A DNA stretch of 64,000 bases, taken from assembly GCA_017558145.1 (NCBI GenBank), contig JAFYWF010000063.1:1-64000 (forward strand), read 5' to 3'. Of the stretch, positions 45,576-63,940 are shown piece after piece. Position 1 is the stretch's first letter; each line of letters opens with the position of its first letter. The notes beneath the pieces were generated by a model. That model was not told the DNA's origin, searched no databases, and was given only the letters and a program-made list of their open reading frames with translations. The DNA comes from Lachnospiraceae bacterium (GTDB lineage: Bacteria; Bacillota; Clostridia; Lachnospirales; Lachnospiraceae). The position numbers and the translations under genes were made by a program.

Positions 45576-45615
45576 AAAAAAGTGCAAAAAAGATACCTTA
45601 CCCATAAAATACAAT
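45576..45615 (+). promoter_or_regulatory. GTGC-box promoter, site 1 (before FHA gene)
   Basis: AAAAAAGTGCAAAAAA at 45576-45591 is followed by GATACC and a -10-like TACAAT at 45610-45615, 28 bases after the G of GTGC. It lies 60 bases before the first FHA gene. The same arrangement recurs at the head of the other operons in this cluster. There is no usual TTGACA, so an activator or special sigma factor is implied. Confidence 0.7.
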
Positions 45616-45675
45616 AAGCTTGTTCATAAGAATTACATTCTATTGAAATAGAGAGATTTTTTAGGAGGAAGCGAT

Positions 45676-46326
45676 ATGAATCATGTATTAGTGTGGGTAG
45701 GGTATCTTTGTTTTGTTGTGGCAGGTGTGCAGGTGATTCGCTTGATAAAATTACATTATGAAGAAAAGGAAAGAAGTGAAAAAGAAGCAAAAAAATATGA
45801 ACAGGAAGCACAAAGGTTACAAGCGAAGGTTAGGTATTTAGAGGAAGAAGCCAAACGGAAGAAAATTGTGGAAGAAAAACGGAAATATTTACAAAAGAAA
45901 AAAGAGCAGCAAATCAAAAAGCAGAAATCTAATCAGCCAAACAAGGGAGTGCAGTACAAACATGGAAAGAGGAAAGACAAACACATAGATCAAAAGTACA
46001 AGGGCACTCCTGAGTTGTGGGGGGTGGCAGGAATTTATGCCAATACTTATATTACTTTAAAGAGAGAGATTTTATTTGGTAGAAGCTATAGCTGTAATTT
46101 AGTATTTCCGGAGGAAATGCCAAGAATCAGTCGAAGACATTGTTTGTTAAAATATGATAGAAACAAAGGAATGTTTTGTTTGACGGATTTGCAATCCAGC
46201 TATGGAACTTTTCTCGGAAATGGGAAAAAATTGAAGCCGGGAGAAAGTGTTTGGATGGCAGTGAATGAAGAATTTTGTTTGGGAAATGGAGAGCGATTCA
46301 GAGTAGGGGTTCGAACAGGTTCCTAA
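45676..46326 (+). CDS. Membrane-anchored FHA-domain protein
   Basis: A 216-residue protein: one N-terminal transmembrane helix (about 3-22), a long Lys/Glu/Gln-rich coiled coil (about 25-95), and a cytoplasmic FHA domain (about 125-213) with the phosphothreonine-binding residues intact: GRSYSCNLVF, ISRRHC and SSYGTFL. FHA domains dock onto threonine-phosphorylated partners, here presumably targets of the kinases at 60596 and 62111. Its FHA is very like that of the RDD-FHA protein at 53127. AGGAGG precedes the ATG, with GTGC-box site 1 upstream. It opens the signalling cluster. Confidence 0.88.
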   Translation: MNHVLVWVGYLCFVVAGVQVIRLIKLHYEEKERSEKEAKKYEQEAQRLQAKVRYLEEEAKRKKIVEEKRKYLQKKKEQQIKKQKSNQPNKGVQYKHGKRKDKHIDQKYKGTPELWGVAGIYANTYITLKREILFGRSYSCNLVFPEEMPRISRRHCLLKYDRNKGMFCLTDLQSSYGTFLGNGKKLKPGESVWMAVNEEFCLGNGERFRVGVRTGS

Positions 46327-46470
46327 GAGGGAATGAATCAGCAACTTAGAAGATAAGATGTACTATCCCCCTCTGTCAGCATATGATATAATCTTCGTAG
46401 TGTGACAAAATGATTTCGATCATTTATATATGAGGACAAAATCAGAGTATGGTTGCAGGGGGAAAAGCAC

Positions 46471-47817
46471 ATGGAAAAGATGAAAAAAGGGGATGCCAGA
46501 AGACAAAGTATCTTGAATGATCTTTTGAATCAGGATTGTTGTACCTATGAGTATCTAATGAATCATTATGGTATCAGTGAAAGAGCCATGCAAATGGATA
46601 TTAAGGAATTATGCAAGCAAGGATATAAGATTAAAGGAATCAAAGCCAAAAGAGGATATGTACTGACGCAGGAACAAGAGACTCCACTGACATACTATGA
46701 ATCTGCTGATTTACAAAAAATAAGAAAATTATTTATTCTTCAGATTTTGCAAAACAGCTATAATGGACATACTTTGAAGGAAATTGCTAAGTTGCTGGAG
46801 GATTATAACTGCAATGGAATTATGGAAACAGATCCTACAGTAATAGAAGGAAAGGGAAATCAGCCTCAAAAAGATTATAAGACCATTCAAAAAGCTTTGG
46901 ATGAATTGTTGGAAGCAAAGATGATAGCGGCAGTTCATGTGATGGATCCAACCAAAATAAAAGATAAAAGTGAAAAGGAAAAAAGAGGAAGAGAAGAGGA
47001 TTGGAAATACTTTATTGCTACCAATGCTCCTCTGCAGTTGGCGTTTTCGGAAGAGGAAGCGATGGAAGTTTTGAATCTTTTGGAAACCTGTTCCAAAGGA
47101 CATTATCATGAAAAAATTTTGAGTGAAATTCAAAACAAGTTAAAGATTGCACTGTGGTTCGATACCGAAGATGAGAAAACAACATCTTCGGCTTATGTTG
47201 TTTATAATAAAAGTTACGAAACAGCAAATAAATTAGATGAGTTACTTAAGGAATTAAATCGATATCCTTTTGAACATAAAGTATTGAATATTACTTACAT
47301 AAATCGGTTGAAACAAACAAATACCATTCCGTTTTCAGTAGGAGATGTGGTGTATTCTGTTGATAAGGATAAGTTGTATCTTTTAGGAGAAAGTAATGGA
47401 TATCCTTTGATTATTCAGTATTCTACGATTACAGGTGTGGAGGTCACCGAAGAAGCAAACAAAGTTTTTCGTAATGACTTTTATACCAATATGGTGAAGG
47501 ACATGCTGTCTGTTTCCATAGAAAAACCAGAATTTGTAAAAGTAGAATTTGATGATATTTTTGCCATCAAAGAAAAACTAAAACGATTGTTACATAATCG
47601 TCCGAAAGCAAAAATTTATGAAGAAGATGGAAAATTATATTATGAAGATTATATCAGTGGAATTCCTGATTTTGCAAATTATTTAAGACGTTATGGATTC
47701 AGTTGCAGAGCATTAGAGCCGCAGAGTTTACGTGAGTTGATGAAATCGTCTGCCTATAGGATTTTGGATAACTATGAACGCTTGGAGAAGGAACTTCAAG
47801 AAAAACAAAACGTATGA
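46471..47817 (+). CDS. WYL-domain transcriptional regulator 1
   Basis: A 448-residue regulator with an N-terminal helix-turn-helix (residues about 10-70: SILNDLLNQDCCTYEYLMNHYGISERAMQMDIKEL), a middle dimer region with a charged insert, and a degenerate WYL ligand-sensing domain (about 250-345) plus the WYL C-terminal extension (about 355-440, ending FANYLRRYGFSCRALEPQSLRELM). WYL proteins switch transcription in response to nucleotides or nucleic acids in several systems. ATG 46471 is chosen because AGGGGG lies 8 bases upstream. No GTGC box is visible before it; a TATAAT at 46387-46392 may be its promoter. It is co-directional with a second WYL gene. Confidence 0.85.
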   Translation: MEKMKKGDARRQSILNDLLNQDCCTYEYLMNHYGISERAMQMDIKELCKQGYKIKGIKAKRGYVLTQEQETPLTYYESADLQKIRKLFILQILQNSYNGHTLKEIAKLLEDYNCNGIMETDPTVIEGKGNQPQKDYKTIQKALDELLEAKMIAAVHVMDPTKIKDKSEKEKRGREEDWKYFIATNAPLQLAFSEEEAMEVLNLLETCSKGHYHEKILSEIQNKLKIALWFDTEDEKTTSSAYVVYNKSYETANKLDELLKELNRYPFEHKVLNITYINRLKQTNTIPFSVGDVVYSVDKDKLYLLGESNGYPLIIQYSTITGVEVTEEANKVFRNDFYTNMVKDMLSVSIEKPEFVKVEFDDIFAIKEKLKRLLHNRPKAKIYEEDGKLYYEDYISGIPDFANYLRRYGFSCRALEPQSLRELMKSSAYRILDNYERLEKELQEKQNV

Positions 47818-47836: not shown

Positions 47837-48793
47837 ATGAGTAAAAATAATGAAAATGCAATTTATCGTTTGAATACGATTTTAACTTTATTTCAGGTAG
47901 AAGGAGTCAGTTACAGTGTGAAGGAACTGGCAGAACTTTTACAGATTCCGGCATCTGTTATTCGAAAGGATATTCTTATGCTACATACCCATGATGAGTG
48001 TGGAATTACTTTTTTTGCAGAAGAAGAGGATGGGCCGGAAGATATTGCAGAGGCGCTGAAAAGTGAAAAAGCAGATGATTTGATTCTTGGTGCTATTACG
48101 CAGTATGAGAATGAAGTGTATTTACCATTGACCGAATTGGAAATTTCCTGTTTAAATGATTTTTTGGACGGGAAACAATTAAGCGCCGGAAAGGTGAAAA
48201 AAAATTATACCATAAAGCCCATGTATAATCAGGCCCGTGCCAATATGCAGGTAAAGGTTAAAGAAATGTATGACGTAATCCAAAAAGGACAAAATATCCG
48301 CATCAAATATAAAACCCGTACCGGTGCTTTTTCAGAATGGCTGATTCGTCCCTTGGAGTTAATTCATAATGCCATGGATGATTTATATTATGTGGTAACT
48401 GTGAATCGAGGACGTATGATACCTTATCGATTGGATCGCATTCGCTCCTATCGAGTGGTAGAGGAAGACGTGGAAGTAGGAAATACGGAGGTATTAAAGC
48501 ATCTTCCTCATATGTGGGGAATGGAACTGGGTGAAAAGGTTCATGTAAAGATTAAGATTTTAAACGAAGCCAATGTGCAGTATAAGGTAAAAAGGGATTT
48601 GGCACAAAGAATTCACGGGACTTGGACACAGGTAGGGGATGACTTGTATTTTGAAGACGATGTCATTGGAATTTATAACTTTAAAAGTTGGATAAACAGT
48701 TACGGAAGTTCGGTACTGGTAGTAGAACCGGAAAGTCTCAGAAAAGAAATTATGGAAAGCGCAAGAAAACGAATTGCGTTTTATGAGGAATAA
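47837..48793 (+). CDS. WYL-domain transcriptional regulator 2
   Basis: A 318-residue regulator following the first by 19 bases. It has an N-terminal HTH (about 8-60: SYSVKELAELLQIPASVIRKDILML), a WYL-type domain (about 145-225, IRIKYKTRTGAFSEWLIRPLELIHNAMDDLYYVVTV, RLDRIRSYRV) and the C-terminal WCX-type extension ending SWINSYGSSVLVVEPESLRKEI. The canonical Trp-Tyr-Leu is DDLYYV here. Tandem WYL genes often work as hetero-oligomers. They are the only DNA-binding regulators in the 18-kb cluster and thus the best candidates to act on the GTGC box. ATG 47837 with GAGGGG is chosen. Confidence 0.87.
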   Translation: MSKNNENAIYRLNTILTLFQVEGVSYSVKELAELLQIPASVIRKDILMLHTHDECGITFFAEEEDGPEDIAEALKSEKADDLILGAITQYENEVYLPLTELEISCLNDFLDGKQLSAGKVKKNYTIKPMYNQARANMQVKVKEMYDVIQKGQNIRIKYKTRTGAFSEWLIRPLELIHNAMDDLYYVVTVNRGRMIPYRLDRIRSYRVVEEDVEVGNTEVLKHLPHMWGMELGEKVHVKIKILNEANVQYKVKRDLAQRIHGTWTQVGDDLYFEDDVIGIYNFKSWINSYGSSVLVVEPESLRKEIMESARKRIAFYEE

Positions 48794-48830
48794 AAAAGTG
48801 CAAAAAAATAGCTGTTGTGACAGATATACT
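48792..48830 (+). promoter_or_regulatory. GTGC-box promoter, site 2 (far upstream of TPR gene)
   Basis: AAAAAAGTGCAAAAAA begins at the stop codon of the second WYL gene and is followed by TATACT at 48825-48830, exactly 27 bases after the GTGC start. It lies within the 5' arm of the terminator hairpin that ends the WYL transcript, 109 bases before site 3. A transcript from it would run straight into that hairpin's 3' arm. Confidence 0.6.
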
Positions 48831-48873
48831 GAAAAATGTAATCAGTATTTGTTACAGCAGTTATTTTTTTGTA
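48806..48873 (+). terminator. Terminator of the WYL operon
   Basis: AATAGCTGTTGTGACAGATA followed by TACTG pairs imperfectly with CAGTATTTGTTACAGCAGTT plus ATT, then TTTTTT. The stem is about 22 bp with a few G-U pairs and a loop of about 11 bases. It overlaps GTGC-box site 2. Confidence 0.8.
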
Positions 48874-48900
48874 TAAAAATTGAAAGAAATTAGGGGAATG

Positions 48901-48940
48901 AAAAAAGTGCAAAAAAGTTCCTGTATGTGGCTGATAAGAT
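48901..48940 (+). promoter_or_regulatory. GTGC-box promoter, site 3 (TPR gene)
   Basis: AAAAAAGTGCAAAAAA at 48901-48916, then GTTCC, and a -10-like TAAGAT at 48935-48940 (GATAAT at 48938 is an alternative). It lies about 45 bases before the TPR gene's start codon and is probably its main promoter. Confidence 0.7.
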
Positions 48941-48985: not shown

Positions 48986-51145
48986 ATGAAAAACAAGAAA
49001 AGTAAAGTATTCAAACGAGTTACTGCAGGTATGATGGCAGGGATGTTACTTATAGGAAATATGGGAACTGTGTATGCTGCAGAAAGTGATGAGGTACGAA
49101 ACAAAGCAAAAGCGGCTTACGAAGAAAAAAATTATCAAGAAGCCAAAAATTATTATGAAGAATTAATTGCATCCAATGAGGCTACAGCAGCAGATTATTG
49201 GTATTCCGGTGCATCGGATACAAATTTAGGTTTTTATTATTTGGCAAAGGAAAAAATAGAAACAGCGCAAGAGTTAATGGAAAATGGAGATACTGCCGTA
49301 TCGGTAGCGGAACAGAGAATGAAATCCATGTATTATGCCGGTGACTATTGGTATGTAGAAAAAATTTATGAGGATGCAGTAAGAAAAGGAATTGTAAACA
49401 CATATCTCAAGTCCATGTATGCAGATAGCTTAGCAAATTGTAAGCAGTACTCAAAAGCAATAGGATTATACGAGGAACTTTTAAACGAATATGAAGGAGA
49501 TGAAATTTCCTACAAAACCACCTATTTAAATGCCATTGGGAACATGCATAAAAACATGGGCGAGTATGAAATTGCGAAACAGTATTATAATGACGCGTTA
49601 GCCTTGGATGGTAATCAGGCAGCTTATAGCGAAAAAATGTCCTACATGGAATTGGAAGGCAAATTAGAAGATGTAGAGCAGATTGTTACTTCCTATATGA
49701 GTGAAAGAAGCAATGAAGAAATTGCTGACGTTTTAGCAGAGAAAGGATATTACCAAGAAGCCCTTGATTACTATGAAAAGGCAACTCAAGAAAACGGGGC
49801 TGATGTAAGAACATCTATAGCAGATGCTTACTATGATTTTGGAATGGCCAAGGAAGCGGCTGCAATCTATGAGGAATTATTAGTAGAAAATCCAACAAAT
49901 ACTGCATATATGAATTCCTTGGGATCTATTTATTGTGATGGTTTGGGTAGATACGCTGAAGCCGAGGAACTCTTTAAGAAAGTAATGGAATTGAACCCTG
50001 ATGCAAATGGTACACTTTCCAATTTTGGAGTCATTACCAGAAAAGAAGGGGATTTAAATCAAACAGTAGAGGCTTATCAGAATGCCCTTGAGCAGTTCCC
50101 GGGATATACAAAAATATATAATTATAGAATTATGTATCAAAAAGACATTACGATAGAGGAAGCAAAAGAAATTTTTTCACAGTATCCGGGATGGCCTGAG
50201 GATGAAACAATGCAGGCTATGATGCTGATGGATACGATTGGTGATTCTGCATCAGATATTACCTTAGAAAGCTATCTTGATTATTATCGTCAGTTGTTAG
50301 CAGAAGATGGTGGAAACTATTATTTCTTAAAAACAGTGGCAGATTTGTTAAAATCCCAAGGAAATTATGAAGAAGCTTTAGAGTATTATCTTCAGGCAAA
50401 AGAAGTAGCAGGCATTTTATCCTACTATGCTGTGAATGGTTTAGGCGATTGTTACTTCTATTGTGGACAGTATGAAAATGCTGCAGCTTGCTATGAGCAG
50501 AATGCTATTGATTTTCATGCAACTAATCTCTTACGAAGCATGGCAGATTGTTACCTAATGTCAGGTGATGTGGAACAGGCAAAAGCAGCTTTGGAAAGAT
50601 ACAAAGCAGAAGGCGGAACAGGAAGCATTGCTTCATATAACATGTTGATTGCTTACCAGGAAAATGATTATGAAGCATTATTAGAAAATGCAACAAAAAC
50701 ATTGGAAGAAGCACCGGGAAATGTGAAAGCAAAAGCCTACAAAGCAGTGGCATTAAATGCACTTAAGATGGAAGGTGCCGATGAGGTTATTGCAGATATT
50801 GACAGTATCATTTATGCAGCAGGAAATCAGGATAAAATGATTGCCGAAAGTATCCTGGGACGATTGGATCAGGCAAGAAGAATCTATGGTGAAATGCAGC
50901 AGTTGTATCCGGTAGAGGCTCGTCAGGCAGTGTTTGATTATGAAATTCGCAATCTCCTTCAGGATCCTGAATTTTGTGAAATGGCAGGATTAGAAGTACC
51001 GGAAAGTAGTGTTGAAACTATGTTATCCGGAATTCCACAAGGTGAAGGTAATGCAACTTCTCCGATCATTCCGGTAGCGACAGGTGCAGGCGTGTTAGCT
51101 GTACTTGGAGGAGTCGTAGTCTTACTGAAAAAGAAATCAAAATAA
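48986..51145 (+). CDS. Extracellular TPR-repeat protein with C-terminal membrane anchor
   Basis: A 719-residue protein with a signal peptide (1-31, ending VYAAES), about 12 or more tetratricopeptide repeats across residues 35-640 (for example YQEAKNYYEELIA, YEIAKQYYNDALALD, YEEALEYYLQAKEV), and a C-terminal transmembrane helix (about 690-713) followed by LKKKSK. There is no LPXTG motif, so it is anchored by the helix, not by sortase. TPRs form protein-binding solenoids; outside the cell this could scaffold the VWA and transglutaminase proteins of the cluster. AAAGGAG ribosome site, GTGC-box promoter. Confidence 0.88.
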   Translation: MKNKKSKVFKRVTAGMMAGMLLIGNMGTVYAAESDEVRNKAKAAYEEKNYQEAKNYYEELIASNEATAADYWYSGASDTNLGFYYLAKEKIETAQELMENGDTAVSVAEQRMKSMYYAGDYWYVEKIYEDAVRKGIVNTYLKSMYADSLANCKQYSKAIGLYEELLNEYEGDEISYKTTYLNAIGNMHKNMGEYEIAKQYYNDALALDGNQAAYSEKMSYMELEGKLEDVEQIVTSYMSERSNEEIADVLAEKGYYQEALDYYEKATQENGADVRTSIADAYYDFGMAKEAAAIYEELLVENPTNTAYMNSLGSIYCDGLGRYAEAEELFKKVMELNPDANGTLSNFGVITRKEGDLNQTVEAYQNALEQFPGYTKIYNYRIMYQKDITIEEAKEIFSQYPGWPEDETMQAMMLMDTIGDSASDITLESYLDYYRQLLAEDGGNYYFLKTVADLLKSQGNYEEALEYYLQAKEVAGILSYYAVNGLGDCYFYCGQYENAAACYEQNAIDFHATNLLRSMADCYLMSGDVEQAKAALERYKAEGGTGSIASYNMLIAYQENDYEALLENATKTLEEAPGNVKAKAYKAVALNALKMEGADEVIADIDSIIYAAGNQDKMIAESILGRLDQARRIYGEMQQLYPVEARQAVFDYEIRNLLQDPEFCEMAGLEVPESSVETMLSGIPQGEGNATSPIIPVATGAGVLAVLGGVVVLLKKKSK

Positions 51146-51249: not shown

Positions 51250-52278
51250 ATGATTCGAAATAAAATAAAACAAAGTCGTATACTTTTAACTTTATTTACC
51301 TTCCTTGCTATTGGAATCTTATGTATGAATAGGGAGATAGGAAGCTTTCCTATAGTAAATGCTACCGTAATCACAGAGCAGAAAGAAGAAAGCAAAGAAA
51401 AAGAAGAGTCAGAAGAAAGAAAAGCACCTGCTTCCTCCGTTTCTTATGAAATACCAAAGAAGCAAGACGTAGAAAAGGAAGTCCAGGCACAGCAGGAAAT
51501 AGAAAAGGAAATCGAGCTTCCAGGGGAAGTAGAAAAAGAACCACAGCCTCTTGGTTCAATACATATCCGGGCTTCCTGGCTCAATGTAAGAGAAACACCC
51601 AATGGAACAGTTGTCGGGAAAGTGGCAGCAGGGGAACAATATGATTATTACGAAGAACAAAATCAATGGCTGAAAATCAAGTATGAAGATTCTTACGGAT
51701 ATATCTTTGGAGATTATGGGGATATCTATGATATAGAAGGAAACTTAGTGACAGCAGCCAATATTCCAGAACCGGAACCTGAACCGGCACCGCAACAACC
51801 GGTGGAACAAGAACAGCCTGCAGCACAACCCCAGCAACAACCACAGAAAAATCCGCAGGACATGTCCACACCGGAATTATGTCAGTGGGTACTTGGTCAG
51901 ATTATTACACCGGATATGGATGATTTTGCTAAGGTACGAGCAGTAAATAAATATCTATGTGATCATATGACCTATGATTTGAATTATTATACAACCCGAG
52001 ATGCTATCTTATTGGGAAGAGGACGTTGTCAGGGATATACCAATGCATTTAAGAATTTGATGAATACCTTAGGGATTCCAACGGACTATGTTCGAGGCTA
52101 TGCCGGAAATGACCGAAGTGCTACTCACGCATGGAATCGAGTGTTAATCGGAGGAACCTATTATTATGTGGATGTTACTTGGAATGATAGTACAGGCTCA
52201 AATCAATATTTATTATTGAATGAGGCAGAATTTAACTATAACAGACAGGTGATTGGATATAATCCCAATAGTGAATAA
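51250..52278 (+). CDS. Secreted SH3b and transglutaminase-like protein
   Basis: A 342-residue surface protein: an N-terminal signal or membrane helix (about 12-37), a Glu/Lys-rich stalk, a bacterial SH3 domain (about 98-158, IRASWLNVRETPNGTVVGKV), a Pro/Gln/Glu-rich linker (about 172-210) and a transglutaminase/protease-like domain (about 213-342). The catalytic triad is intact: Cys260 in GRGRCQGYTNAF, His293 in THAWNRV and Asp308 in YYVDVTWND. SH3b commonly binds peptidoglycan, so the enzyme probably acts in the wall as a protease or cross-linker. GAAAGGAGG precedes the ATG; no GTGC box, so it is likely read through from the TPR gene. Confidence 0.88.
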   Translation: MIRNKIKQSRILLTLFTFLAIGILCMNREIGSFPIVNATVITEQKEESKEKEESEERKAPASSVSYEIPKKQDVEKEVQAQQEIEKEIELPGEVEKEPQPLGSIHIRASWLNVRETPNGTVVGKVAAGEQYDYYEEQNQWLKIKYEDSYGYIFGDYGDIYDIEGNLVTAANIPEPEPEPAPQQPVEQEQPAAQPQQQPQKNPQDMSTPELCQWVLGQIITPDMDDFAKVRAVNKYLCDHMTYDLNYYTTRDAILLGRGRCQGYTNAFKNLMNTLGIPTDYVRGYAGNDRSATHAWNRVLIGGTYYYVDVTWNDSTGSNQYLLLNEAEFNYNRQVIGYNPNSE

Positions 52279-52448: not shown

Positions 52449-52487
52449 AAAAAAGTGCAAAAAATTTCCAACCACTACATATATAAT
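52449..52487 (+). promoter_or_regulatory. GTGC-box promoter, site 4 (DUF4145/RDD-FHA/VWA-FHA operon)
   Basis: AAAAAAGTGCAAAAAA at 52449-52464, then TTTCC, and a perfect TATAAT at 52482-52487, 27 bases after the GTGC start. This is the best copy of the shared promoter and serves as the reference. It lies 52 bases before the first gene of a three-gene operon. Confidence 0.75.
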
Positions 52488-52538: not shown

Positions 52539-53111
52539 ATGAGAACAAATTTTAATCATTTAAGAGAGTATCCTAAATATTTTGAAATCGCAAAAACTGC
52601 AGAAAAACAGATTTTAAATGCCAAGAATCAGGCAGAATTCAAGATGGCAGGAAATCTTATGCGTCAGTTGATGGAAGGATTGATTGGGGAACTTGTAGCT
52701 AAGCATGGACTGGAACCAAAAGATTTTGGTGATGCTTTGAAAAAATTAAAGCAGGGAAGGATTATGCATAAAGCAAGTATCAATCATTTATATAGAATCA
52801 AAGATTTGGGCAACATTTGTTCTCATCCTAAAGATACCATTTCCGAAGATGAACTTCATGAAATGTATTCCTTGGTGTATGAGGAATCTTATCGATTGGT
52901 GAAATATTATTTAACCGATCAAGCTGTGAATGATTATAAAAAAGCACAGCGGGAGGGGCAGATACAGAATCATGATTCAAAACAATCTTATCATAACCAA
53001 AATAAAAATGTTAACAATGAAAACCAAAATGCAGAAAGCAAGAGCGAAGGGTGGATCGCGGCACTCATTGGCATTGCTGTTGTGATAGTCTGTTTATGTT
53101 TGGTGTTATAG
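52539..53111 (+). CDS. DUF4145-like tail-anchored protein
   Basis: A 190-residue protein with a helical N-terminal domain (1-125) resembling DUF4145, a HEPN-related domain (LMRQLMEGLIGELVAKHGL, then LYRIKDLGNICSHPKD with the family's GN-x-x-xH ending), an Asn/Gln-rich linker (about 135-167) and a C-terminal transmembrane helix (about 170-189). The strict HEPN RNase motif R-x4-6-H is not present, so it is likely a binding rather than a cutting domain. It should sit in the membrane facing the cytoplasm. First gene of a GTGC-box operon with RDD-FHA and VWA-FHA. Confidence 0.7.
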   Translation: MRTNFNHLREYPKYFEIAKTAEKQILNAKNQAEFKMAGNLMRQLMEGLIGELVAKHGLEPKDFGDALKKLKQGRIMHKASINHLYRIKDLGNICSHPKDTISEDELHEMYSLVYEESYRLVKYYLTDQAVNDYKKAQREGQIQNHDSKQSYHNQNKNVNNENQNAESKSEGWIAALIGIAVVIVCLCLVL

Positions 53112-53126: not shown

Positions 53127-54023
53127 ATGAGAAAACAAGGGAAAATAGAAAATAGAATCATAGCAGGCATCGTAGATATTATAGTAACAGGGATGATAGC
53201 AATCGTTTTCATGTATGCGGCAGCGCAGGCTTTTTCTAAGAATGTACAAAGCTTTGAAATTATGATTCCTGTAGTTTATTTTGTGTATTTGTTAGCTATG
53301 GATTTGTTCCGTGAGGGTCAAAGCATAGGAAGAATTTTAGTAAAAGAACGTGTCATTGGAAAAGAGGAAAAAGCACCTTCCACCGTAGATTTTATTGTCC
53401 GTAACATTATAAAAACTATGCCGGTATTGATCATTTTCTTATTTCCAACACTTCGTATCTTGGCTCTTGGTATTGCAGTAGCTTACATACTGTTTCCTTT
53501 CTTTCATAAGCAACATTTGGCATTACATGACCTTGTAGGTGAAACAAAGGTGTGTGCAAATGCGTGGGAAAGTGTAGAAGAAAAAGTAGAATACTCACAA
53601 GAAAAGATAACTTTGAAGGAAGAAACTGCAGAGAATTCAATTAGCTTAGAAGAAGCAAAAGAAGATAACACAAAAAAACAAAAGCAGGAAGATAACCAAG
53701 CAGAAGTGGTGAAGCCCGGGCTCTATGGTGTATCAGGTGAGTATGAAGAAGCTTTTATTCCGCTAACCGGTGAGGTGGTTTTAGGAAGAGAATATAGTTG
53801 TAATCTGATTTTCCCGGGAGAAACTTTGGGAATCAGCAGACGCCATTGTATGGTGCAATATGACCAAGAAAATAAAATGTTTATTATTATAGATTTAAAT
53901 TCTACTTATGGAACCTTTTTGGGAGATGGCAGCAGAATTCCTGCAGGAGAGACAATGTATCTTAAAGAGGGCGAGGAATTCTACATAGGAAACAATGAGA
54001 GATTTCGTGTGGGAAATGAATAA
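53127..54023 (+). CDS. RDD membrane domain fused to FHA domain
   Basis: A 298-residue protein. Residues 1-140 form an RDD domain: three transmembrane helices with the family Arg/Asp positions (ENRIIAGIVDIIVTG, GQSIGRILVKERVIG, LALHDLVGETKV). A charged linker leads to a C-terminal FHA domain (about 205-297) with GREYSCNLIF, ISRRHC and NSTYGTFLGDG intact. Its FHA is nearly the same as that of the protein at 45676, indicating duplication. It would place phosphothreonine binding at a membrane channel-like platform. GGAGG ribosome site; 15 bases after the DUF4145-like gene. Confidence 0.9.
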   Translation: MRKQGKIENRIIAGIVDIIVTGMIAIVFMYAAAQAFSKNVQSFEIMIPVVYFVYLLAMDLFREGQSIGRILVKERVIGKEEKAPSTVDFIVRNIIKTMPVLIIFLFPTLRILALGIAVAYILFPFFHKQHLALHDLVGETKVCANAWESVEEKVEYSQEKITLKEETAENSISLEEAKEDNTKKQKQEDNQAEVVKPGLYGVSGEYEEAFIPLTGEVVLGREYSCNLIFPGETLGISRRHCMVQYDQENKMFIIIDLNSTYGTFLGDGSRIPAGETMYLKEGEEFYIGNNERFRVGNE

Positions 54024-55596: not shown

Positions 55597-55633
55597 AAAA
55601 GTGCAAAAAAATTTCGTTGCAAGATAATAAGAT
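55595..55633 (+). promoter_or_regulatory. GTGC-box promoter, site 5 (zinc-ribbon FHA / HEPN-kinase operon)
   Basis: AAAAAAGTGCAAAAAA begins within the VWA-FHA stop codon; ATTTCG and a -10-like TAAGAT at 55628-55633 follow, 27 bases after the GTGC start. It precedes a three-gene operon by about 75 bases. Confidence 0.7.
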
Positions 55634-55706
55634 AAGAATAGAAAGAAACGTAATTGCAAAGAGATGGTGCAGTTACAAGAACAAAGTAAAAGAGAGGTAT
55701 GAAATT

Positions 55707-56327: not shown

Positions 56328-56328
56328 C

Positions 56329-56703
56329 ATGTATAAAATACCAAACATTTCCATACCACCAATGATTCCCCTGGAAGAGCTGGCAATAGAAAATAATGGG
56401 TGGTGTTTGGAAGAAATTGCAGGACCACATGGAAATGTAGCAATGAAATGTGAACGTAGTCTTATCTTTGGGCGTAGTGCAAGGAATTGCAATGTAGTAT
56501 TTCCTACAGATACTAAAGGAGTCAGTGGTGTTCATTGTGAAGTGGTACCAATGAAGGATGGGTTACTTCTGAAAGACCTGAATTCAACCTATGGAACTTT
56601 TTTGATTGATGGAAGACGCGTTGAACCTAATCATGGGGTAATGTTAGAGCGTGGTGATGTATTCTATTTGGCTAGTAAGGAGGTTATGTTCAAGGTCGTA
56701 TAA
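56329..56703 (+). CDS. Small stand-alone FHA protein
   Basis: A 124-residue soluble protein, almost entirely one FHA domain (about 38-124): LIFGRSARNCNVVF, VSGVHCEV and NSTYGTFLIDG carry all phosphothreonine-contact residues. A Pro-rich N-terminus (IPPMIPLEEL) precedes it. The ATG comes one base after the previous stop, with GGAGAGG inside that gene's end. It could act as an adaptor between a phosphorylated kinase and the HEPN protein that follows. Confidence 0.88.
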   Translation: MYKIPNISIPPMIPLEELAIENNGWCLEEIAGPHGNVAMKCERSLIFGRSARNCNVVFPTDTKGVSGVHCEVVPMKDGLLLKDLNSTYGTFLIDGRRVEPNHGVMLERGDVFYLASKEVMFKVV

Positions 56704-56721: not shown

Positions 56722-58284
56722 ATGACCGAACCAAAGAATAATTATAAGATTAAACCTTATCGATCAGAAGAAGAAAACGAAAATCGTAATTTATATCGAA
56801 GCAAAGATAATATTCGTCGAAAATGGTTTTCTATTTGCAGTAATGTTAATGAGCATGACAATAAGGGGATTTATGAGAAGTGTCTTGTACAGGCATTTAA
56901 CCTGACGGAGTTTGTCATGGATAATTTTATTGAACAGCTTTTTGACACGGCAAAAAATCAAAACAATATTAAAAAAATAGAAAACACAAATCCGGATAAA
57001 AAAGAAGACAAATGGAAAAAAGGAAAGAAAGAAGAAAGTGGAACATATTTTTTTATTAAAGAAAATGTTACCATTGATTTTGATACACAATTTAAAAATG
57101 GATATTTTGGGAAAACCCAAATTTTAGAAAAACTTGGATATAAGCTTCCGCAGCATATTCATGAGGTACGTAAAAACAGAAATAAATATGCCCATGGTAC
57201 AGACACCTATAAAAATTCTATCAGGGACGAAGTAAATAACTTCGAAACCATCGTAAGATATATAAATACTATGGGTGAGCTGTTAGTAATGATGAAAAAA
57301 TTAGCACCTAATCAGGTAAATCCTTCCTATGAAGAATTAAAGCTTCAAGTAGGAAAAGCGGTGGGACATGAAGATAAATATGTGGCACTGACTTTGGTAA
57401 GGGAAGATGAAAAAGAGCGAGTTTTTTATGGAAAAGACAGCAGCAATCAAAGGGAAGTTTGTATTTATGAATTAATACCCCCAAAAAACATTTTAGATGT
57501 TTATCATCAGAGTAAGAAAGAACTTGTCAAGGTTGCGGGCAGTGGAATTGTAAGAACCGAGGAAGTTTTATTAAAAAATAAGACTTGTTATATTATCAAA
57601 GAAAAGATTCAAGGGGATACTTTGCCGCAATATTTGCGTAAGCAAAACAAGGATATAGATGTTAGAAAAGACATGTTGTATCAGGTGGAAAAAATTATTC
57701 GAAATATTTATAAATATCCCAATATTTCGACTTCACTTCGAGAAACAGATCTGATAGTGGATGGGCAGGGGGATTTATGGCTGACCCAATATGAATTGGG
57801 GAAAAAACAGATTTCACAGCAGGAGTTCGTTCGTCGTTATCGTTTGATTTTAGATATCCAAGAAGAAATTACAGAAATGCCACAGGTATCATTAGCTTCT
57901 CCGGAGTCAGATGACAAGGCACAAAAGGAATCAGTGATTCCACCAAAAGCAGAAGAAAAGAGAATTCCTGTATCGGAAAAAAATACAGGTTTTTATAAAG
58001 AAGTCAAAGAAGAGAAGATGGTAGAGCTGAAGCAAAAAACAGAGGTAAAGGCACCGGAAGTTTTTGGAGAACCTACAGTTCATGAAGTAAAAAAAGAAAC
58101 AGTCAGACAAAGCCAAGATAAAGTACAGAAAGAAAAATGTGCAGAGATAGAAAAAGTAACCGATGCTACAGTACAGATTGAGATAGGCAGTAATCCCAAT
58201 AATTGGGCTAAGCTATGGGGAACGCTGGGAGTTTGCAGTGGAATTCTTCTTATTTTGTGGGCTGTGTCAGGATTGCTTACATAA
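56722..58284 (+). CDS. Membrane-anchored HEPN-like and degenerate kinase protein
   Basis: A 520-residue protein. The helical N-terminal region (about 35-200) looks HEPN-like and has Arg153-NKYA-His158, a match to the R-x4-6-H RNase motif. The middle (about 225-385) resembles a protein-kinase C-lobe (KEKIQGDTLPQYLRKQ as hinge, TDLIVDGQGDLWLTQYELG where HRD and DFG should be) but lacks the catalytic Asp motifs, so it is a likely pseudokinase. A long charged linker leads to a C-terminal transmembrane helix (about 498-518). HEPN plus pseudokinase on a membrane tail is unusual; RNA cleavage is a hypothesis only. It ends the operon. Confidence 0.7.
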   Translation: MTEPKNNYKIKPYRSEEENENRNLYRSKDNIRRKWFSICSNVNEHDNKGIYEKCLVQAFNLTEFVMDNFIEQLFDTAKNQNNIKKIENTNPDKKEDKWKKGKKEESGTYFFIKENVTIDFDTQFKNGYFGKTQILEKLGYKLPQHIHEVRKNRNKYAHGTDTYKNSIRDEVNNFETIVRYINTMGELLVMMKKLAPNQVNPSYEELKLQVGKAVGHEDKYVALTLVREDEKERVFYGKDSSNQREVCIYELIPPKNILDVYHQSKKELVKVAGSGIVRTEEVLLKNKTCYIIKEKIQGDTLPQYLRKQNKDIDVRKDMLYQVEKIIRNIYKYPNISTSLRETDLIVDGQGDLWLTQYELGKKQISQQEFVRRYRLILDIQEEITEMPQVSLASPESDDKAQKESVIPPKAEEKRIPVSEKNTGFYKEVKEEKMVELKQKTEVKAPEVFGEPTVHEVKKETVRQSQDKVQKEKCAEIEKVTDATVQIEIGSNPNNWAKLWGTLGVCSGILLILWAVSGLLT

Positions 58285-58404: not shown

Positions 58405-58443
58405 AAAAAAGTGCAAAAAAATTACCAGGGACATTGGTATGAT
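58405..58443 (+). promoter_or_regulatory. GTGC-box promoter, site 6 (FHA/PP2C/kinase operon)
   Basis: AAAAAAGTGCAAAAAA at 58405-58420, then ATTACC, and TATGAT at 58438-58443, 27 bases after the GTGC start. It precedes a four-gene operon (zinc-ribbon FHA, PP2C, PP2C-like, kinase). Confidence 0.7.
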
Positions 58444-58493: not shown

Positions 58494-59081
58494 ATGGCAA
58501 GACCAGGAGATATTGTAACATGTAAAAACGGACATCACTATGATGTATCAAGACATACCGAATGTCCGGTTTGTAAACAGGAAAGAGAACGTAAAGAGGT
58601 AGGCGTTACCAGAGGCGACAACAGTATGTATGTAGCAAAGCCAAGATATGCAAGTCGTCCTATGAATACAGCAGCAGATATGGATGGAGAAGAGACCGTT
58701 GCTGCTGTTCAAGTAAAGATGGGATTTTCACCGGTAGTAGGCTGGTTGGTTAGTGTAGACGGAACTAACAAAGGAAAGGATTATCGTATTGTAAATGGTC
58801 GTAATTTCATCGGAAGAGAACGCACCATGGATGTTTGTATTCCGGGAGACAATACTATTTCACGCCAGCAGCATGCCATTATCAGCTATGATGACAGAGC
58901 AAATAAATATTATTATTCACCGGGCATGGCTAGAAGTATCGACCACATCAATGAAGAACCGGTTTTTGCAACTGTAGAATTAAAAGCAGGTGATCTGATT
59001 GAAGTGGGAACTACAAAATTGAGATTTGTACCTTTATGTAGTGCGAAGTTCAGATGGGAGGACTGGAATGAAGCAGAATAA
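58494..59081 (+). CDS. Zinc-ribbon plus FHA protein (copy B)
   Basis: A 195-residue soluble paralogue of the protein at 55707. The zinc ribbon uses Cys10, His14, Cys24 and Cys27; a linker with EETVAAVQV follows; the FHA-type domain (about 80-185) shows VVGWLVSVDG, FIGRERTMDVCI and ISRQQHAII, with the NGT turn again replaced (ARSIDHINE). The zinc ribbon resembles those at the N-termini of the two kinases, so these proteins may share a binding partner. The end overlaps the PP2C gene by 14 bases. Confidence 0.88.
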   Translation: MARPGDIVTCKNGHHYDVSRHTECPVCKQERERKEVGVTRGDNSMYVAKPRYASRPMNTAADMDGEETVAAVQVKMGFSPVVGWLVSVDGTNKGKDYRIVNGRNFIGRERTMDVCIPGDNTISRQQHAIISYDDRANKYYYSPGMARSIDHINEEPVFATVELKAGDLIEVGTTKLRFVPLCSAKFRWEDWNEAE

Positions 59082-59913
59082 ATGGAAGAAGCTTTGGGCT
59101 GGCTTGAAACATAAGATGACCAAAAAAGAAGAACCCATGAAATTGGAGGTAGATAATCTTCAGGGAATTGGCAAAAGGCATCAGCAGGAGGATAGCTTTT
59201 GTATGTCTGATTATACCAATGCAGAGCTGATGCAAGAAAAAGGATTTTTTGCAGTGGTGGCTGATGGTATGGGCGGTATGTTACATGGAGACAGAACCAG
59301 TGCCACCGTAACAGCAGCTGCCAAAGAATATTTTGATGCCTGTGTGATTCATAAAAATTCAGGATGTAATCAGATGTTAGATATGCTTGAGTTTATCGAT
59401 GAAAAGGTAAAAAAATTACAAAAGGAAGAGGATATTTACGAAAGCGGATCTACTTTAACAGCAGTATGGATTCGTAACCATATGATGCATTTTATGACGG
59501 TAGGTGACAGCAGAATCTACTTATTCAGAGGAGGCAATTTGTATCAACTGAATCGAGATCATAATTTGAAGAATAAATTAATTGAAAAAGTAATCCAGGG
59601 AGAAATGGATCGGGAAATGTATCATGATATGATGGGAAAATCCGGTCTTACAAGTTATCTTGGTAAGGAAGAAATTGATTTGGTGGATGTATCTGTAAGA
59701 CCATTTTTCTTAGAAAAAGATGATGTGATTTTGATGGCATCTGACGGAGTCTTTGGAACACTTTCAGATACGGAATTGATTGCCTTATTAAAACAGGATT
59801 TTGATTATGTGGCAGAAAATATGAAACTTGCTATTGAAAATGCCGGCAAGAAAAAACAGGATAACTACACAGCAATTATTGTGAAGTGTGTCAATGGGGA
59901 AGGAGAAGCGTAA
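59068..59913 (+). CDS. PP2C-family Ser/Thr phosphatase
   Basis: A 281-residue PPM-type phosphatase that would reverse the kinases' phosphorylation. Metal-binding motifs are intact: QQEDSF (Asp42), VVADGMGGM (Asp66-Gly67), VGDSRIYLF, LMASDGVFG and KQDNYTAII. A basic N-terminal segment precedes the fold; there is no membrane helix. ATG 59068 with GGGAGG is chosen over ATG 59026. Its start overlaps the zinc-ribbon FHA gene by 14 bases, suggesting coupled translation, and a PP2C-like pseudo-enzyme follows five bases downstream. Confidence 0.94.
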   Translation: MKQNKWKKLWAGLKHKMTKKEEPMKLEVDNLQGIGKRHQQEDSFCMSDYTNAELMQEKGFFAVVADGMGGMLHGDRTSATVTAAAKEYFDACVIHKNSGCNQMLDMLEFIDEKVKKLQKEEDIYESGSTLTAVWIRNHMMHFMTVGDSRIYLFRGGNLYQLNRDHNLKNKLIEKVIQGEMDREMYHDMMGKSGLTSYLGKEEIDLVDVSVRPFFLEKDDVILMASDGVFGTLSDTELIALLKQDFDYVAENMKLAIENAGKKKQDNYTAIIVKCVNGEGEA

Positions 59914-59918
59914 GATAG

Positions 59919-60503
59919 ATGAAAGCAGTAATAAGTGGCTGTGGCGGTCTTGGTGATTTAAGAAAAGATACAGACTATATAGTTCATAAAGGTGTTGCAG
60001 GTGGAATGATTATTGTTGCTGTAGATACTTCGGAAGCATTTGAAGACGGCATGGCGCAGGAAATTGCACAAAGAATTATTTATGAATGGGAAGGGGAACC
60101 ACAATTAAGTGAAGAACGCTTGCAAGAATGTCTGCAAGTGGGAACTCAGATTTCTTCAAAGATTTCTGTTACTATTTTGGTTTTGGATAAAAAAGAAATG
60201 GGCATTGCTCATAACGGAAATAATAAGATTTTTCATATTATGGAGGGACAAATTGATGATTTGACCATACCGGAGGAAGAAACGGGAATGGTTGATATTT
60301 ATGAATATACAGCAAAACCTGAGGATGCATTTGTAGTGATGACTGACGGATTTGCAAGTTATATTCAGGAACAAGAGGTTTTGATTGATTATACTAAGTC
60401 AAGGACGCCAAAAGATTTGATTTCTTATTTGAGTACCAGAGTGGGATTACGCCAGAAAGAATGTTTTGACAGTTATACGGCTATGGCTTTAATTTTTGAA
60501 TAA
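59919..60503 (+). CDS. Degenerate PP2C-like protein (probable pseudophosphatase)
   Basis: A 194-residue protein that keeps the order of PP2C strands while losing the catalytic groups. IIVAVDTSEAFEDG stands where PP2C has VVADGMGGMLHG, removing the metal-binding Asp-Gly; AHNGNNKIFHI replaces GDSRIYLF; FVVMTDGFASYI keeps the TDG of the third motif; DSYTAMALIF replaces DNYTAIIV. It also lacks the N-terminal RxxNED strand. I infer a regulatory, non-catalytic relative of the neighbouring phosphatase. It could be a divergent SpoIIE-type fold, but no such motif is seen. Confidence 0.7.
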   Translation: MKAVISGCGGLGDLRKDTDYIVHKGVAGGMIIVAVDTSEAFEDGMAQEIAQRIIYEWEGEPQLSEERLQECLQVGTQISSKISVTILVLDKKEMGIAHNGNNKIFHIMEGQIDDLTIPEEETGMVDIYEYTAKPEDAFVVMTDGFASYIQEQEVLIDYTKSRTPKDLISYLSTRVGLRQKECFDSYTAMALIFE

Positions 60504-60595: not shown

Positions 60596-61969
60596 ATGAA
60601 TGTAAATCAACTTTGTATGAATTGTATGATGGGAATGGTAGATGAAAAGGGTGTATGTGCTATTTGTCATAGCTCAAATGATAGCATCCGTAATACCGAC
60701 AGACATTTGCCTCTGGGCAGCATTCTTAGAGGAAAATATATAGTAGGAAGAGTTCTTGGAGAAGGAGGATTTGGAATTACTTATATTGGTTTAGATTTAG
60801 ATTTGCAAGCTAGAGTAGCCATTAAGGAATTTTGTCCCAGAGACAGTGTTTCCAGAGAAACCACTAATCATTTAACACTTCTTCCTTACGATAAGGAAAG
60901 CGAAGAATTTTTTGAAGAAGAAAAAGAGAAGTTCTTAAATGAAGCCAGACGACTTGGTAAGTTCCGTGGACAAGAAGGTATCGTTTCCGTAATGGATTAT
61001 TTTAAGGAAAACGGAACTGCCTATATTGTGATGGAATATATTGAGGGACTTAATTTAAAAAAATATTTAGGCTCCCTAGACAGCCGCATGAAGGTACAGG
61101 AAGTACTGACACTATTAAAGCCTGTTTTAAAAACCTTGAATATGATGCACGAAGAAAACTTGATACATAGAGATATTAGTCCGGATAACATTATGATTTG
61201 CAAAGATCAGAAGAGGGTATGTCTGATTGATTTTGGAAGCGCCAGAGAGGTGAATGGAGAACATTCACTATCTGTGTATAAAAAGGGAAGTTATACTCCG
61301 TTAGAACAGCAGAGTCGTAATGGCAAACAAGGTCCATGGACGGATGTATATGCTCTCTGTGCCATGATGTATTATTGTATTACAGGGCGCGATATACCGG
61401 AAGCCGTGGAAAGAACTATGGAAGAGAAACTGATTCCACCAAGTAAATTAGGTGTGGAAATTCCGGAACATGTGGAACAGGCTATTTTAAATGGATTAGT
61501 TTTAAATCCTTCTAATCGAACACAAAATGTGGGAGAATTGATGAAGGAATTATATGATTCTCAAGGAGCAGGAAAGGTTGCTGAAAAAAACCTAGCAACT
61601 CCTGTTATGGAAGTTGCTCCGGAGCCCAAGAAGGAAGAACAACAGAGGCAAGAAGTAGTACCACAGGAAGTGGTACAAAAGGATGCAATACAAACACCAC
61701 CGGTCAAGGAACAATCCAACGGTCTTTTGAAACTCGGAATTGTTATTGCCATTGTTTTTGTTATCTTTAAAGTGATTCAAGCAGCAATCATCCTTCCGCA
61801 GTATCAAGAGATGCAACAAAGACAAGAGCAATTTCAACAGGAATATGAAGCTACGAAACAAAGAATAGAAGCTACCAAACAAGAGGTACAACAACAACAA
61901 GAACAATTTCAAAAAGATTACGAGGCTAATAAAAAGAAGATTGAAGAGATGCAACAAAAGTTTAATTGA
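60596..61969 (+). CDS. Zinc-ribbon Ser/Thr protein kinase 1, membrane-anchored
   Basis: A 457-residue Hanks-type kinase. Residues 1-25 form a zinc ribbon (Cys7, Cys10, Cys21, Cys24). The kinase domain (about 45-320) is complete: GEGGFGITY, Lys77 (VAIKEF), HRDISPDN with Asp193, and DFGSAR with Asp212; HRD-I-S in place of HRD-x-K is typical of this bacterial subgroup. After a Glu/Gln/Pro linker comes a transmembrane helix (about 378-400) and a Gln/Glu-rich extracellular coiled coil (402-457). It probably senses something outside and phosphorylates targets read by the FHA proteins. No GTGC box precedes it; it is likely read from site 6. Confidence 0.95.
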   Translation: MNVNQLCMNCMMGMVDEKGVCAICHSSNDSIRNTDRHLPLGSILRGKYIVGRVLGEGGFGITYIGLDLDLQARVAIKEFCPRDSVSRETTNHLTLLPYDKESEEFFEEEKEKFLNEARRLGKFRGQEGIVSVMDYFKENGTAYIVMEYIEGLNLKKYLGSLDSRMKVQEVLTLLKPVLKTLNMMHEENLIHRDISPDNIMICKDQKRVCLIDFGSAREVNGEHSLSVYKKGSYTPLEQQSRNGKQGPWTDVYALCAMMYYCITGRDIPEAVERTMEEKLIPPSKLGVEIPEHVEQAILNGLVLNPSNRTQNVGELMKELYDSQGAGKVAEKNLATPVMEVAPEPKKEEQQRQEVVPQEVVQKDAIQTPPVKEQSNGLLKLGIVIAIVFVIFKVIQAAIILPQYQEMQQRQEQFQQEYEATKQRIEATKQEVQQQQEQFQKDYEANKKKIEEMQQKFN

Positions 61970-62027: not shown

Positions 62028-62066
62028 TAAAACGCAAAAAATTTCATGTTTTGTTATTATTATATT
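62028..62066 (+). promoter_or_regulatory. GTGC-box-like promoter, site 7 (kinase 2)
   Basis: A variant AAAACGCAAAAAATTTCA at 62029-62046 with a -10-like TATATT at 62061-62066. Compared with sites 1-6, GTGC is ACGC and the spacer is two bases longer. It shares the A-tract and TTTC part with site 8. Confidence 0.55.
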
Positions 62067-62110
62067 TTTAGAACACGAGAATAAACGAAAATACATAATG
62101 GAGGTCTTAC

Positions 62111-63880
62111 ATGAACGTAAATCAAATATGCATGAGTTGTATGAGCGAACTAAAAGGACAAGCAATATGTCCTAATTGTCAGACGGAAGATTCTTCTAAT
62201 AAAAATCAGAGCAGACACCTACCTATAAGAACAATACTTAGAGGGAAATATCTTGTAGGAAAAGTTTTGGGAGAGGGAGGCTTTGGGATTACCTATATTG
62301 GTTATGATTTGGATTTACAGATTCGGGTAGCCATCAAAGAATTTTGTCCTCGTTCTTATGCTGGAAGAGAAGTAACTGACCAAATAACCTTACTTCCTTT
62401 TGATGAAAAAGCAGAAGAAATTTTTGAAGCAGAAAAAGAGAAGTTTATTAATGAAGCCAGACGTCTTGCGAAATTTCGAGATGAAGATGGTGTGGTTTCT
62501 GTATTGGATTATTTTAAGGAAAATGGAACTGCTTATATTGTAATGGAATATATTGATGGAGTTACTTTAAAAAATTATTTAAAGACTCTGGATGAAAAAA
62601 TCAAAATTCAAGATGTACTGACATTATTACAACCTATCATGGTAGCCTTAAATATGATGCATAAGGAAAACTTGATACATAGAGATATCAGCCCGGATAA
62701 TATCATGATTCGAAAGGATCTAAAAAAAGTATATTTGATTGATTTTGGAAATGCCAGAGATGTTCATGGAGAGCATTCCATGTCTATATACAAAAAAGGA
62801 AGTTATACACCGATAGAACAACAGAGTCGTCATGGGAAACAAGGCTCTTGGACGGATGTATATTCCTTGTGTGCTACTATTTATTATTGTATTACCGGTA
62901 GGAATATTCCGGAAGCAGCAGATAGGATCATAGAGGATAATTTGATTGCACCGAGCAAGATGGGGGTAGAGGTTCCACAAAAGGTAGAAGAAGTACTATT
63001 AAAAGGATTGGTTATAAATCCTAATCAACGTATCCAGACCATGGAAGAATTGATGGAAGAACTATATCAAGATAATCCGGAGGAGAAAAAGATAACAGAC
63101 ATAACATCAGTTACAGAGAATACAGAAGAAAAGATAGAAATTATAATAAAGAACCAAGATGAATCCAAGGAAGATGACATGAAAGATTCTGTGGAAGATG
63201 GCAGAATAGAGGCAAAAAAGACATCGGAAAATAAAATATGGAGATGGTTAATAGGATTAGGAATTTTGTTTTTATGTGGTTACTGGTTAATTTGGAGTGA
63301 TGCGAATAAAACAACGGTAGTTTCACTTGAAGATGGCGGTACCCGTGAATGTGTGTATAAGGATGGAGGGATTGTTAGTCAGAAAGATTATTATCCGAAC
63401 GGTGAACTCAAGTCACATATATATATGGAAGATGGCAATAAATATGAAGTATATTATAGAAGAGATGAAAGTGGTAAACTTTTAGGAACATTCAATCATG
63501 TGAATGATGTTCTTTTAGATGAAACGTGGTATAGGGAAAATGGACATATTGTATATTACGTGTTCAAAGATGGTGATGAAAATAATTATACCGGTGTAGA
63601 AAGAAATGAAAGTGGTAAAATAGTATTTAAATTAGTAGTAGAAGATGGTAGTAATAGTAGTTCTGTAAGATATGACTATCCGAAGGAAGGCTGGGAGATG
63701 CATATTGCATATATAGAAAATAAACATTGTTATATCTATTATGATGAATATGCAAAACTTATTGCAAGTACAACGTATGTAGATGATGTTTATGTGGGCG
63801 GAGAAATTTATGATGAGACAAAGTGGAATTCGATAGATTGGGAAAAAGCAGACGAAGATTGGGAGAGTCGTGCCAACTAA
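62111..63880 (+). CDS. Zinc-ribbon Ser/Thr protein kinase 2 with MORN-like ectodomain
   Basis: A 589-residue kinase closely related to kinase 1 over residues 1-325: zinc ribbon (Cys7, Cys10, Cys20, Cys23), GEGGFGITY, Lys76, HRDISPDN with Asp192, DFGNAR with Asp211. After an acidic linker and a transmembrane helix (about 375-395), the outside part differs: instead of a coiled coil it has repeats of the MORN/YwqK type (KDYYPNGELKSHIYMEDG, YRRDESGKLLGTF, YRENGHIVYYVFKDGD), about 190 residues. The two kinases thus share an inside and differ outside, as expected for sensors of different signals. GGAGG ribosome site. Confidence 0.94.
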   Translation: MNVNQICMSCMSELKGQAICPNCQTEDSSNKNQSRHLPIRTILRGKYLVGKVLGEGGFGITYIGYDLDLQIRVAIKEFCPRSYAGREVTDQITLLPFDEKAEEIFEAEKEKFINEARRLAKFRDEDGVVSVLDYFKENGTAYIVMEYIDGVTLKNYLKTLDEKIKIQDVLTLLQPIMVALNMMHKENLIHRDISPDNIMIRKDLKKVYLIDFGNARDVHGEHSMSIYKKGSYTPIEQQSRHGKQGSWTDVYSLCATIYYCITGRNIPEAADRIIEDNLIAPSKMGVEVPQKVEEVLLKGLVINPNQRIQTMEELMEELYQDNPEEKKITDITSVTENTEEKIEIIIKNQDESKEDDMKDSVEDGRIEAKKTSENKIWRWLIGLGILFLCGYWLIWSDANKTTVVSLEDGGTRECVYKDGGIVSQKDYYPNGELKSHIYMEDGNKYEVYYRRDESGKLLGTFNHVNDVLLDETWYRENGHIVYYVFKDGDENNYTGVERNESGKIVFKLVVEDGSNSSSVRYDYPKEGWEMHIAYIENKHCYIYYDEYAKLIASTTYVDDVYVGGEIYDETKWNSIDWEKADEDWESRAN

Positions 63881-63900
63881 TTAGTAGGTGGTTTGCAATC

Positions 63901-63940
63901 AAAACCGCAAAAATTTTCCATACCATGTAGTTATTATATT
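63901..63940 (+). promoter_or_regulatory. GTGC-box-like promoter, site 8 (gene beyond the window)
   Basis: AAAACCGCAAAAATTTTCCA followed by TATATT at 63935-63940, matching site 7 almost base for base. A small hairpin (GCACATG/CATGTGC, about 63976-63993) and AAAGGAG at the very end of the window point to a start codon just outside, so the cluster continues. Confidence 0.55.

Follow-up and report, generated by a model that had tools for sequence, protein, structure and literature searches.

A 16-nt box as the predicted promoter element of a species-private phosphosignalling regulon in a Lachnospiraceae bacterium, with a tandem WYL pair as its candidate reader

Introduction

The question raised by one stretch of DNA from a Lachnospiraceae bacterium is whether a cluster of genes for FHA proteins, Ser/Thr kinases and PP2C phosphatases is controlled as a set, and if so, by which protein. 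The stretch (NCBI GenBank assembly GCA_017558145.1, contig JAFYWF010000063.1, positions 1 to 64,000 of the forward strand) is 64,000 nt long and is called the window here; its contig is labelled C21 and its genome G000. A preliminary description of this DNA proposed that a 16-mer, AAAAAAGTGCAAAAAA, hereafter the box, marks a single promoter type serving a private regulon. In the analysis reported here, the box is the constant part of a predicted promoter found at two loci of the genome, and WYL1 and WYL2, encoded in tandem within the cluster, are the best candidate for the activator that would read it.

The box and its -10 element

The six exact copies that the preliminary description had listed were all found, every one on the + strand, with GTGC at 45582, 48798, 48907, 52455, 55601 and 58411. 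When positions are counted from the G of this GTGC, as they are throughout, the -10-like hexamers said to follow after 27-28 nt are also present at each copy; in order, they are TACAAT at +28, TATACT at +27, TAAGAT at +28, TATAAT at +27, TAAGAT at +27 and TATGAT at +27. With up to two mismatches allowed, the window contains 7 matches to the box (shuffled sequence: mean 0.77, maximum 3). As had been claimed, the first 45 kb hold no exact copy, the only match there at this tolerance being at 39470.

The whole genome, 88% complete with 2.88 Mb in 120 contigs, contains the exact 16-mer nine times, six times in the window and three times on another contig, C68, at 35393, 38099 and 42566. None of the copies lies on the reverse strand, and a reversed-string control likewise gave 0. 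A shorter 14-mer version of the box has ten exact copies, the tenth of which (C82:23760) has no -10 element at +27 or +28. The three C68 copies, which were not part of the data behind the preliminary description, are followed by TAGAAT, TATGAT and TAAAAT, each exactly at +27, and so provide independent confirmation of the register between box and -10 element. Counting all nine exact copies, TANNAT starts at +27 or +28 in eight, for which P is ~6e-11 even at a generous rate of 4%.

The ninth copy, at 48798, is probably not a promoter. It lies at the WYL2 stop (48792 to 48807) and scores 29.7 bits with a position weight matrix (PWM). A very strong terminator hairpin follows WYL2 (48796 to 48874; RNA minimum free energy -38.7 kcal/mol, z -10), the left arm of which takes in most of this exact 16-mer. 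This copy was left out of the promoters because its TATACT is buried inside the hairpin and because it lacks the T at +12 that is described next.

When the remaining eight copies are aligned on GTGC, all 16 positions of the box are invariant, and the TANNAT hexamer starts at +27 in six and at +28 in two. Between these elements, the preliminary description had seen a partly kept TTNCC-like block; a block does exist, and it is better written as (A/T)TNC in a fixed register from +11 to +14, with T at +12 and C at +14 in all eight promoters and T at +11 in seven. No -35 hexamer is present in any of the eight, again as described. Within the retrieved DNA stretches, which cover weak sites of the genome only in part, the PWM scores the eight promoters at 40-45 bits, the next non-box match at 16 or less and a reversed-sequence control at 14. 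The distance from GTGC to the ATG is 79-106 nt and mostly 82-84, and terminators lie ahead of several boxes. If transcription starts ~7 nt after the -10 element, the box is predicted to occupy ~-45 to -30 and the (A/T)TNC block ~-28 to -25. A search of 43-64 kb against Rfam gave no match, and the reading of the box as an RNA element was dropped.

Identity among the promoter copies is 1.00 within the box, 0.30 in the upstream flank and 0.25 in the spacer, the expectation from composition being 0.33. Because the flanks have diverged to background while the box has stayed fully identical, the sequences indicate that the box itself is a constrained element rather than a trace of recent duplication. 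Thus, the proposal that a promoter cassette was recently copied and pasted without any shared regulator is most improbable, for recent copying would leave alike flanks and no long alignable flanks join the copies, even though several leaders are alike after the -10 element (ATAGAAACAAG...) and the distance from GTGC to ATG is nearly constant.

The preliminary description had placed two weaker variants before kinase 2 and before the gene after it. The strings exist, but they fall below the PWM threshold, and the better -10 hexamer in each is TATTAT, not TATATT. The first (AAAACGCAAAAAATTTC..TATTAT, 62030 to 62066, noted at 62034) precedes kinase K2, and the second (AAAACCGCAAAAATTTTCC..TATTAT, 63902 to 63937, noted at 63907) precedes a 106-aa protein (C21:63989-64309). 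In both, GCAAAAA(A)TTT(T)C is retained and TATTAT stands at the equivalent of +26/+27. They may be low-affinity sites, ancestral sites or a separate class. The two also share the string GCAAAAA(A)TTT(T)C ... GTTATTATAT ... TTAGAA, and a second promoter class is possible. Elsewhere in the genome, at C9:28127 (L210), a box with one mismatch and TAAAAT at +27 stands ahead of the gene for a 308-aa membrane protein, and at C33:1689 (L223), AAAAATGCAAAAAAATTTC and a TAGTAT hexamer precede the gene for a 202-aa protein; each is a possible further member and a weak extra candidate, and neither was counted in the regulon.

The genes behind the boxes

The first genes behind the eight promoters encode FHA1, a TPR protein, a DUF4145 protein, FHA4, FHA6, the kinase pair K3-K4, a 120-aa protein and a 189-aa protein. 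A box promoter is therefore predicted for no fewer than eight transcription units at two loci; the window accounts for five and C68 for three. The same element in the same register stands before several unlinked units and is rare elsewhere, as expected of a single promoter class or regulon. The idea of a private regulon served by a single promoter type has thus held up, the nine exact copies being confined to two contigs. The expectation that members would be restricted to FHA, kinase, PP2C and TPR genes came close, and correctly predicted the two kinases of C68; the DUF4145, 120-aa and 189-aa proteins go beyond it.

All features of the window cluster are on the + strand. Box 1 (45576 to 45591, PWM 40.5 bits, with TACAAT at 45610-45615) precedes the gene for FHA1, a 216-aa FHA-domain protein with an N-terminal hydrophobic segment (45676 to 46326; Pfam FHA, E 4.8e-15), and beyond it WYL1 and WYL2. 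This pair had been described as having a promoter that lacks the box. A candidate separate promoter with an extended -10 element, TGATATAAT (46384 to 46392), is indeed boxless, but the pair also follows FHA1, a gene with a box in its promoter. Box 2 (48901 to 48916, with TTCC at 48918-48921 and TAAGAT at 48935-48940) is upstream of a 719-aa TPR-repeat protein with a signal-like N terminus and a C-terminal transmembrane segment (48986 to 51145), after which comes a protein with SH3_3 and a transglutaminase-like domain (51250 to 52278). Box 3 (52449 to 52464, with TTCC at 52466-52469 and TATAAT at 52482-52487) precedes genes for a 190-aa DUF4145 protein (52539 to 53111), an RDD and FHA protein (53127 to 54023) and a VWA and FHA membrane protein (53995 to 55596).

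Box 4 (55595 to 55610, with TTTC at 55612-55615 and TAAGAT at 55628-55633) stands before FHA4 (55686 to 56327, the start probably being 55707), FHA5 (56254 to 56703) and a 520-aa protein, U520 (56722 to 58284). The latter has a C-terminal hydrophobic segment and a weak kinase-like match (PADLOC PD-T4-6, E 4e-4), and no Pfam family matched it. Box 5 (58405 to 58420, with TTAC at 58422-58425 and TATGAT at 58438-58443) is followed by FHA6 (58494 to 59081), a PP2C-family phosphatase (59026 to 59913) and a diverged PP2C-like protein, PP2Cb (59919 to 60503; weak NCBIfam match of the Stp1 type, E 8e-4). The Ser/Thr kinase K1 (60596 to 61969) has no box of its own and is perhaps part of the FHA6 unit; the Ser/Thr kinase K2 (62111 to 63880) comes next. 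Housekeeping genes flank the cluster, PTA/acetate-kinase-like on one side and a standard SecA on the other.

At the C68 locus, boxes precede the Ser/Thr kinase pair K3-K4, the gene for the 120-aa protein and an orphan gene for the 189-aa protein. The box of the 120-aa gene lies ~20-28 nt behind the K4 stop. In this region (L034:6190-10461, on G000:C68), a gap of 26 nt separates the 120-aa gene from one for a heavy-metal P-type ATPase, beyond which lies one for a MATE transporter. The three genes may therefore share a transcript, with the box promoter driving them all. Beside the K3 promoter lies a divergent gene for a Cu/Zn superoxide dismutase, a hint of a metal or oxidative link.

Distribution in related genomes

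Seven genomes of the same genus were compared, G000 and six congeners. No comparable box was found in the six; G004 has one copy, which does not resemble a promoter. The likeness between congeners and window lies in the proteins. G004 has a related kinase-FHA-PP2C-FHA-PP2C-VWA/FHA operon, and G001 has related VWA-FHA and PP2C proteins; unlike the window cluster, neither locus has the box or a WYL pair, and G001 has a LytTR regulator instead. The G001 locus (L058 7170-18998, on G001:C53) places VWA-FHA and PP2C beside WXG100, a 1472-aa FtsK-type ATPase and LytTR, and is type VII-like.

A loose-pattern scan of ~85,000 GTDB species and of viral sequences turned up no comparable box set. It matched 94 GTDB stretches, 80 of which were listed, and 13 viral ones. 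Among the GTDB and viral matches inspected, one had all three register features, and there were no clustered copies and no homologues of the cluster proteins nearby. A search of GTDB for loci related through the VWA-FHA protein also found nothing. The prediction that the box would be conserved upstream of orthologues has thus found no support, either in the boxless G004 operon or across the species scanned. Since the box is missing from the congeners and the matches inspected from the ~85,000 species showed no clustering, the regulon belongs to this species alone, or to it and sisters not yet sampled. Among the stretches examined, three contigs from metagenome-assembled genomes of rumen Lachnospiraceae/Lachnoclostridium (L089, L115 and L132) share another string, GAAAAAAGTGCAAAAAA...AAAAAAAGTTGAAA...ATACCATTTTCCGAAATaATGTGCTACAAT, conserved in three species; its register is unrelated to that of the box, and it is apparently a separate conserved promoter.

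What reads the box?

The box and the (A/T)TNC block would occupy the place where region 4 of sigma-A normally reads a -35 element, and since the box replaces this position, the housekeeping RNA polymerase would need a helper, an activator, at these promoters. In the model that we favour, AAAAAAGTGCAAAAAA-N-(A/T)T-N-C-N12/13-TANNAT would be the promoter of a species-private regulon, read by a WYL1-WYL2 heterodimer together with sigma-A; on the sequence evidence, the chances of this seem to us evenly balanced. Because the two halves of the site, GTGC and (A/T)TNC, are unlike each other and separated by about one helical turn, a heterodimer fits, and two different helix-turn-helix (HTH) domains could each read one of them. 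With a nucleotide or other ligand bound in its WYL domains, the heterodimer would take the place of the -35 contact, in a way similar to that of mycobacterial PafBC, and would switch on the FHA/kinase/PP2C network and, through the FHA1 promoter, itself.

WYL1 (448 aa, 46471 to 47817) is the first gene of the tandem pair and WYL2 (318 aa, 47837 to 48793) the second. Pfam scores HTH_11 (E 5.6e-8) and WCX (E 3.7e-7) in WYL1, not WYL, and WYL (E 5.2e-6) and WCX (E 3.3e-7) in WYL2, not HTH; secondary structure suggests HTH and WYL in both, on low-confidence AlphaFold models (pLDDT 45 and 41). As the preliminary description had held, they are the only DNA-binding regulators found in the window cluster. 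Among the seven same-genus genomes, the pair is present only in G000, which alone also has the promoter box. Outside the genus, the tandem arrangement recurs in four other genera (G010, G180, G652 and G503), in unrelated contexts, and the two genes are kept together in 5/5 genomes that carry them. Thus, position, co-occurrence at the genus level and the asymmetry of the site make WYL1-WYL2 the best candidate activator.

The closest known precedent is PafBC, a heterodimer that acts with SigA at a non-palindromic -26 motif (PMC11804915, PMC6789036) and controls the mycobacterial DNA damage regulon through tTGTCRgtg-8 nt-TannnT. Like WYL1-WYL2, it is encoded in tandem, as a pair of HTH/WYL/WCX proteins (PMC5656591, PMC6789036, PMC11804915), a domain set that WYL1 and WYL2 may share. 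Its promoters likewise have no usable -35 element, and in them, too, the spacing between a non-palindromic motif and a -10 element of the sigma-A type is fixed. By this analogy, a PafBC-like "sigma adaptation" by WYL1-WYL2 is plausible. However, the motif here differs (A-tract/GTGC/A-tract/TTNC) and ends 12-13 nt, not 8, before the -10 element, and the PafBC regulon serves DNA repair, whereas the one described here serves phosphosignalling and is species-private. A PDB sequence search with WYL1 or WYL2 singly found no match, and orthology to PafB or PafC was not seen. DriD, a WYL activator of Caulobacter, also has a site overlapping a poor -35 element, but it is a homodimer with a palindromic site (PMC12340889), whereas in the present case the site lacks symmetry and two proteins are proposed.

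Several observations weigh against WYL1-WYL2 as the reader. No such box lies near any of the four pairs in G010, G180, G652 and G503, so the link between box and pair is one that we infer within G000 and is without a counterpart outside it. Absence of the box and pair from the congeners is soft, because those genomes are 72-89% complete. Furthermore, the quality of the AlphaFold models does not allow a fold search, and a profile search of PDB showed similarity to PafBC as no more than marginal, the best match covering WYL only (E 0.12). The box could instead be read by a regulator whose gene lies elsewhere, or by a sigma factor in which region 4 is altered. In G010, the homologous tandem WYL pair is directly downstream of a Cas13a gene (1437 aa) and a 746-aa gene with a possible likeness to DUF3800, on the minus strand (L059, G010:C54, 1273-10155), and it is possible that the pair are type VI-A accessory regulators; repeat-like open reading frames lie at both ends of the contig.

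It may accordingly be asked whether another, unlinked transcription factor reads the box with sigma-A, the WYL pair being only a regulon member or a neighbour. This is possible, although we consider it on the unlikely side. The lack of a direct tie between WYL pair and box outside G000 speaks for it, as does the C68 locus, which has boxes without a WYL gene and where the sole HTH gene identified beside them is a member of a HipBA-type pair; the restriction of both box and WYL pair to G000 among congeners speaks against it, as does the lack of any further DNA-binding regulator in the window cluster.

An alternative sigma factor of the sigma-I or ECF (extracytoplasmic function) type, for which the box would be the -35 element, is improbable. 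GTGC with its A-tract is like the sigma-I specificity region, where a specificity triad is followed by an A-tract (PMC6056542), and the genome has 16 Sigma70_r2 matches. Sigma-I, however, needs CGWA at -10 (PMC10575876), whereas TANNAT is present in all eight promoters, and no true SigI was found, the best match reaching 37.9 bits against a cut-off of 185; with the wrong -10 element and no SigI gene, a sigma-I regulon was rejected. In addition, none of the 16 matches lies on C21 or C68, and congeners with similar sigma sets have no box.

More improbable still is a strong UP element with phased A-tracts that works without a dedicated activator. The motif AAAAAARNR at -46 to -38 is given as the proximal site of the C-terminal domain of the RNA polymerase alpha subunit (alpha-CTD) in work cited in PMC2801614, and AAAAAAGTG fits it at ~-45 to -37 if the start site is 7 nt after the -10 element. 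Such a degenerate element would be scattered in an AT-rich genome, whereas the exact string with GTGC and the right-hand A-tract is confined to two loci; moreover, the (A/T)TNC block would be left unexplained. The left A-tract may nevertheless contact alpha-CTD in addition. The arrangement also recalls Spx/alpha-CTD at Bacillus trxB, where the core promoter is immediately preceded by a GC-containing tetranucleotide and then poly-A, with the critical G at -44 (PMC2801614). Here the corresponding G of GC is ~25 nt from the start of the -10 element, ~7 bp closer. An Spx-dependent promoter was rejected, since it has AGCA at -45 to -42 and the box has GTGC at ~-39 to -36 (PMC2801614).

Implications

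According to a 2025 account, no heterodimeric WYL proteins other than PafBC and its orthologues had been reported (PMC11804915). If WYL1-WYL2 does read the box, a PafBC-like WYL heterodimer outside Actinobacteria would reprogramme the housekeeping RNA polymerase at promoters of a new class and control a whole eukaryote-like phosphorylation network of FHA, Ser/Thr kinase, PP2C and VWA proteins, with related pairs wired elsewhere, for example to Cas13a; this broader proposal is made tentatively, and we regard it as somewhat doubtful. A strict promoter class belonging to a tandem WYL pair from another phylum would reveal whether sigma adaptation is a general property of such pairs. The box itself also identifies who belongs to a phosphosignalling network that is otherwise uncharacterised, among them second-locus genes that would not have been connected with it in any other way, and one exact control sequence before eight gene sets makes this network easy to test.

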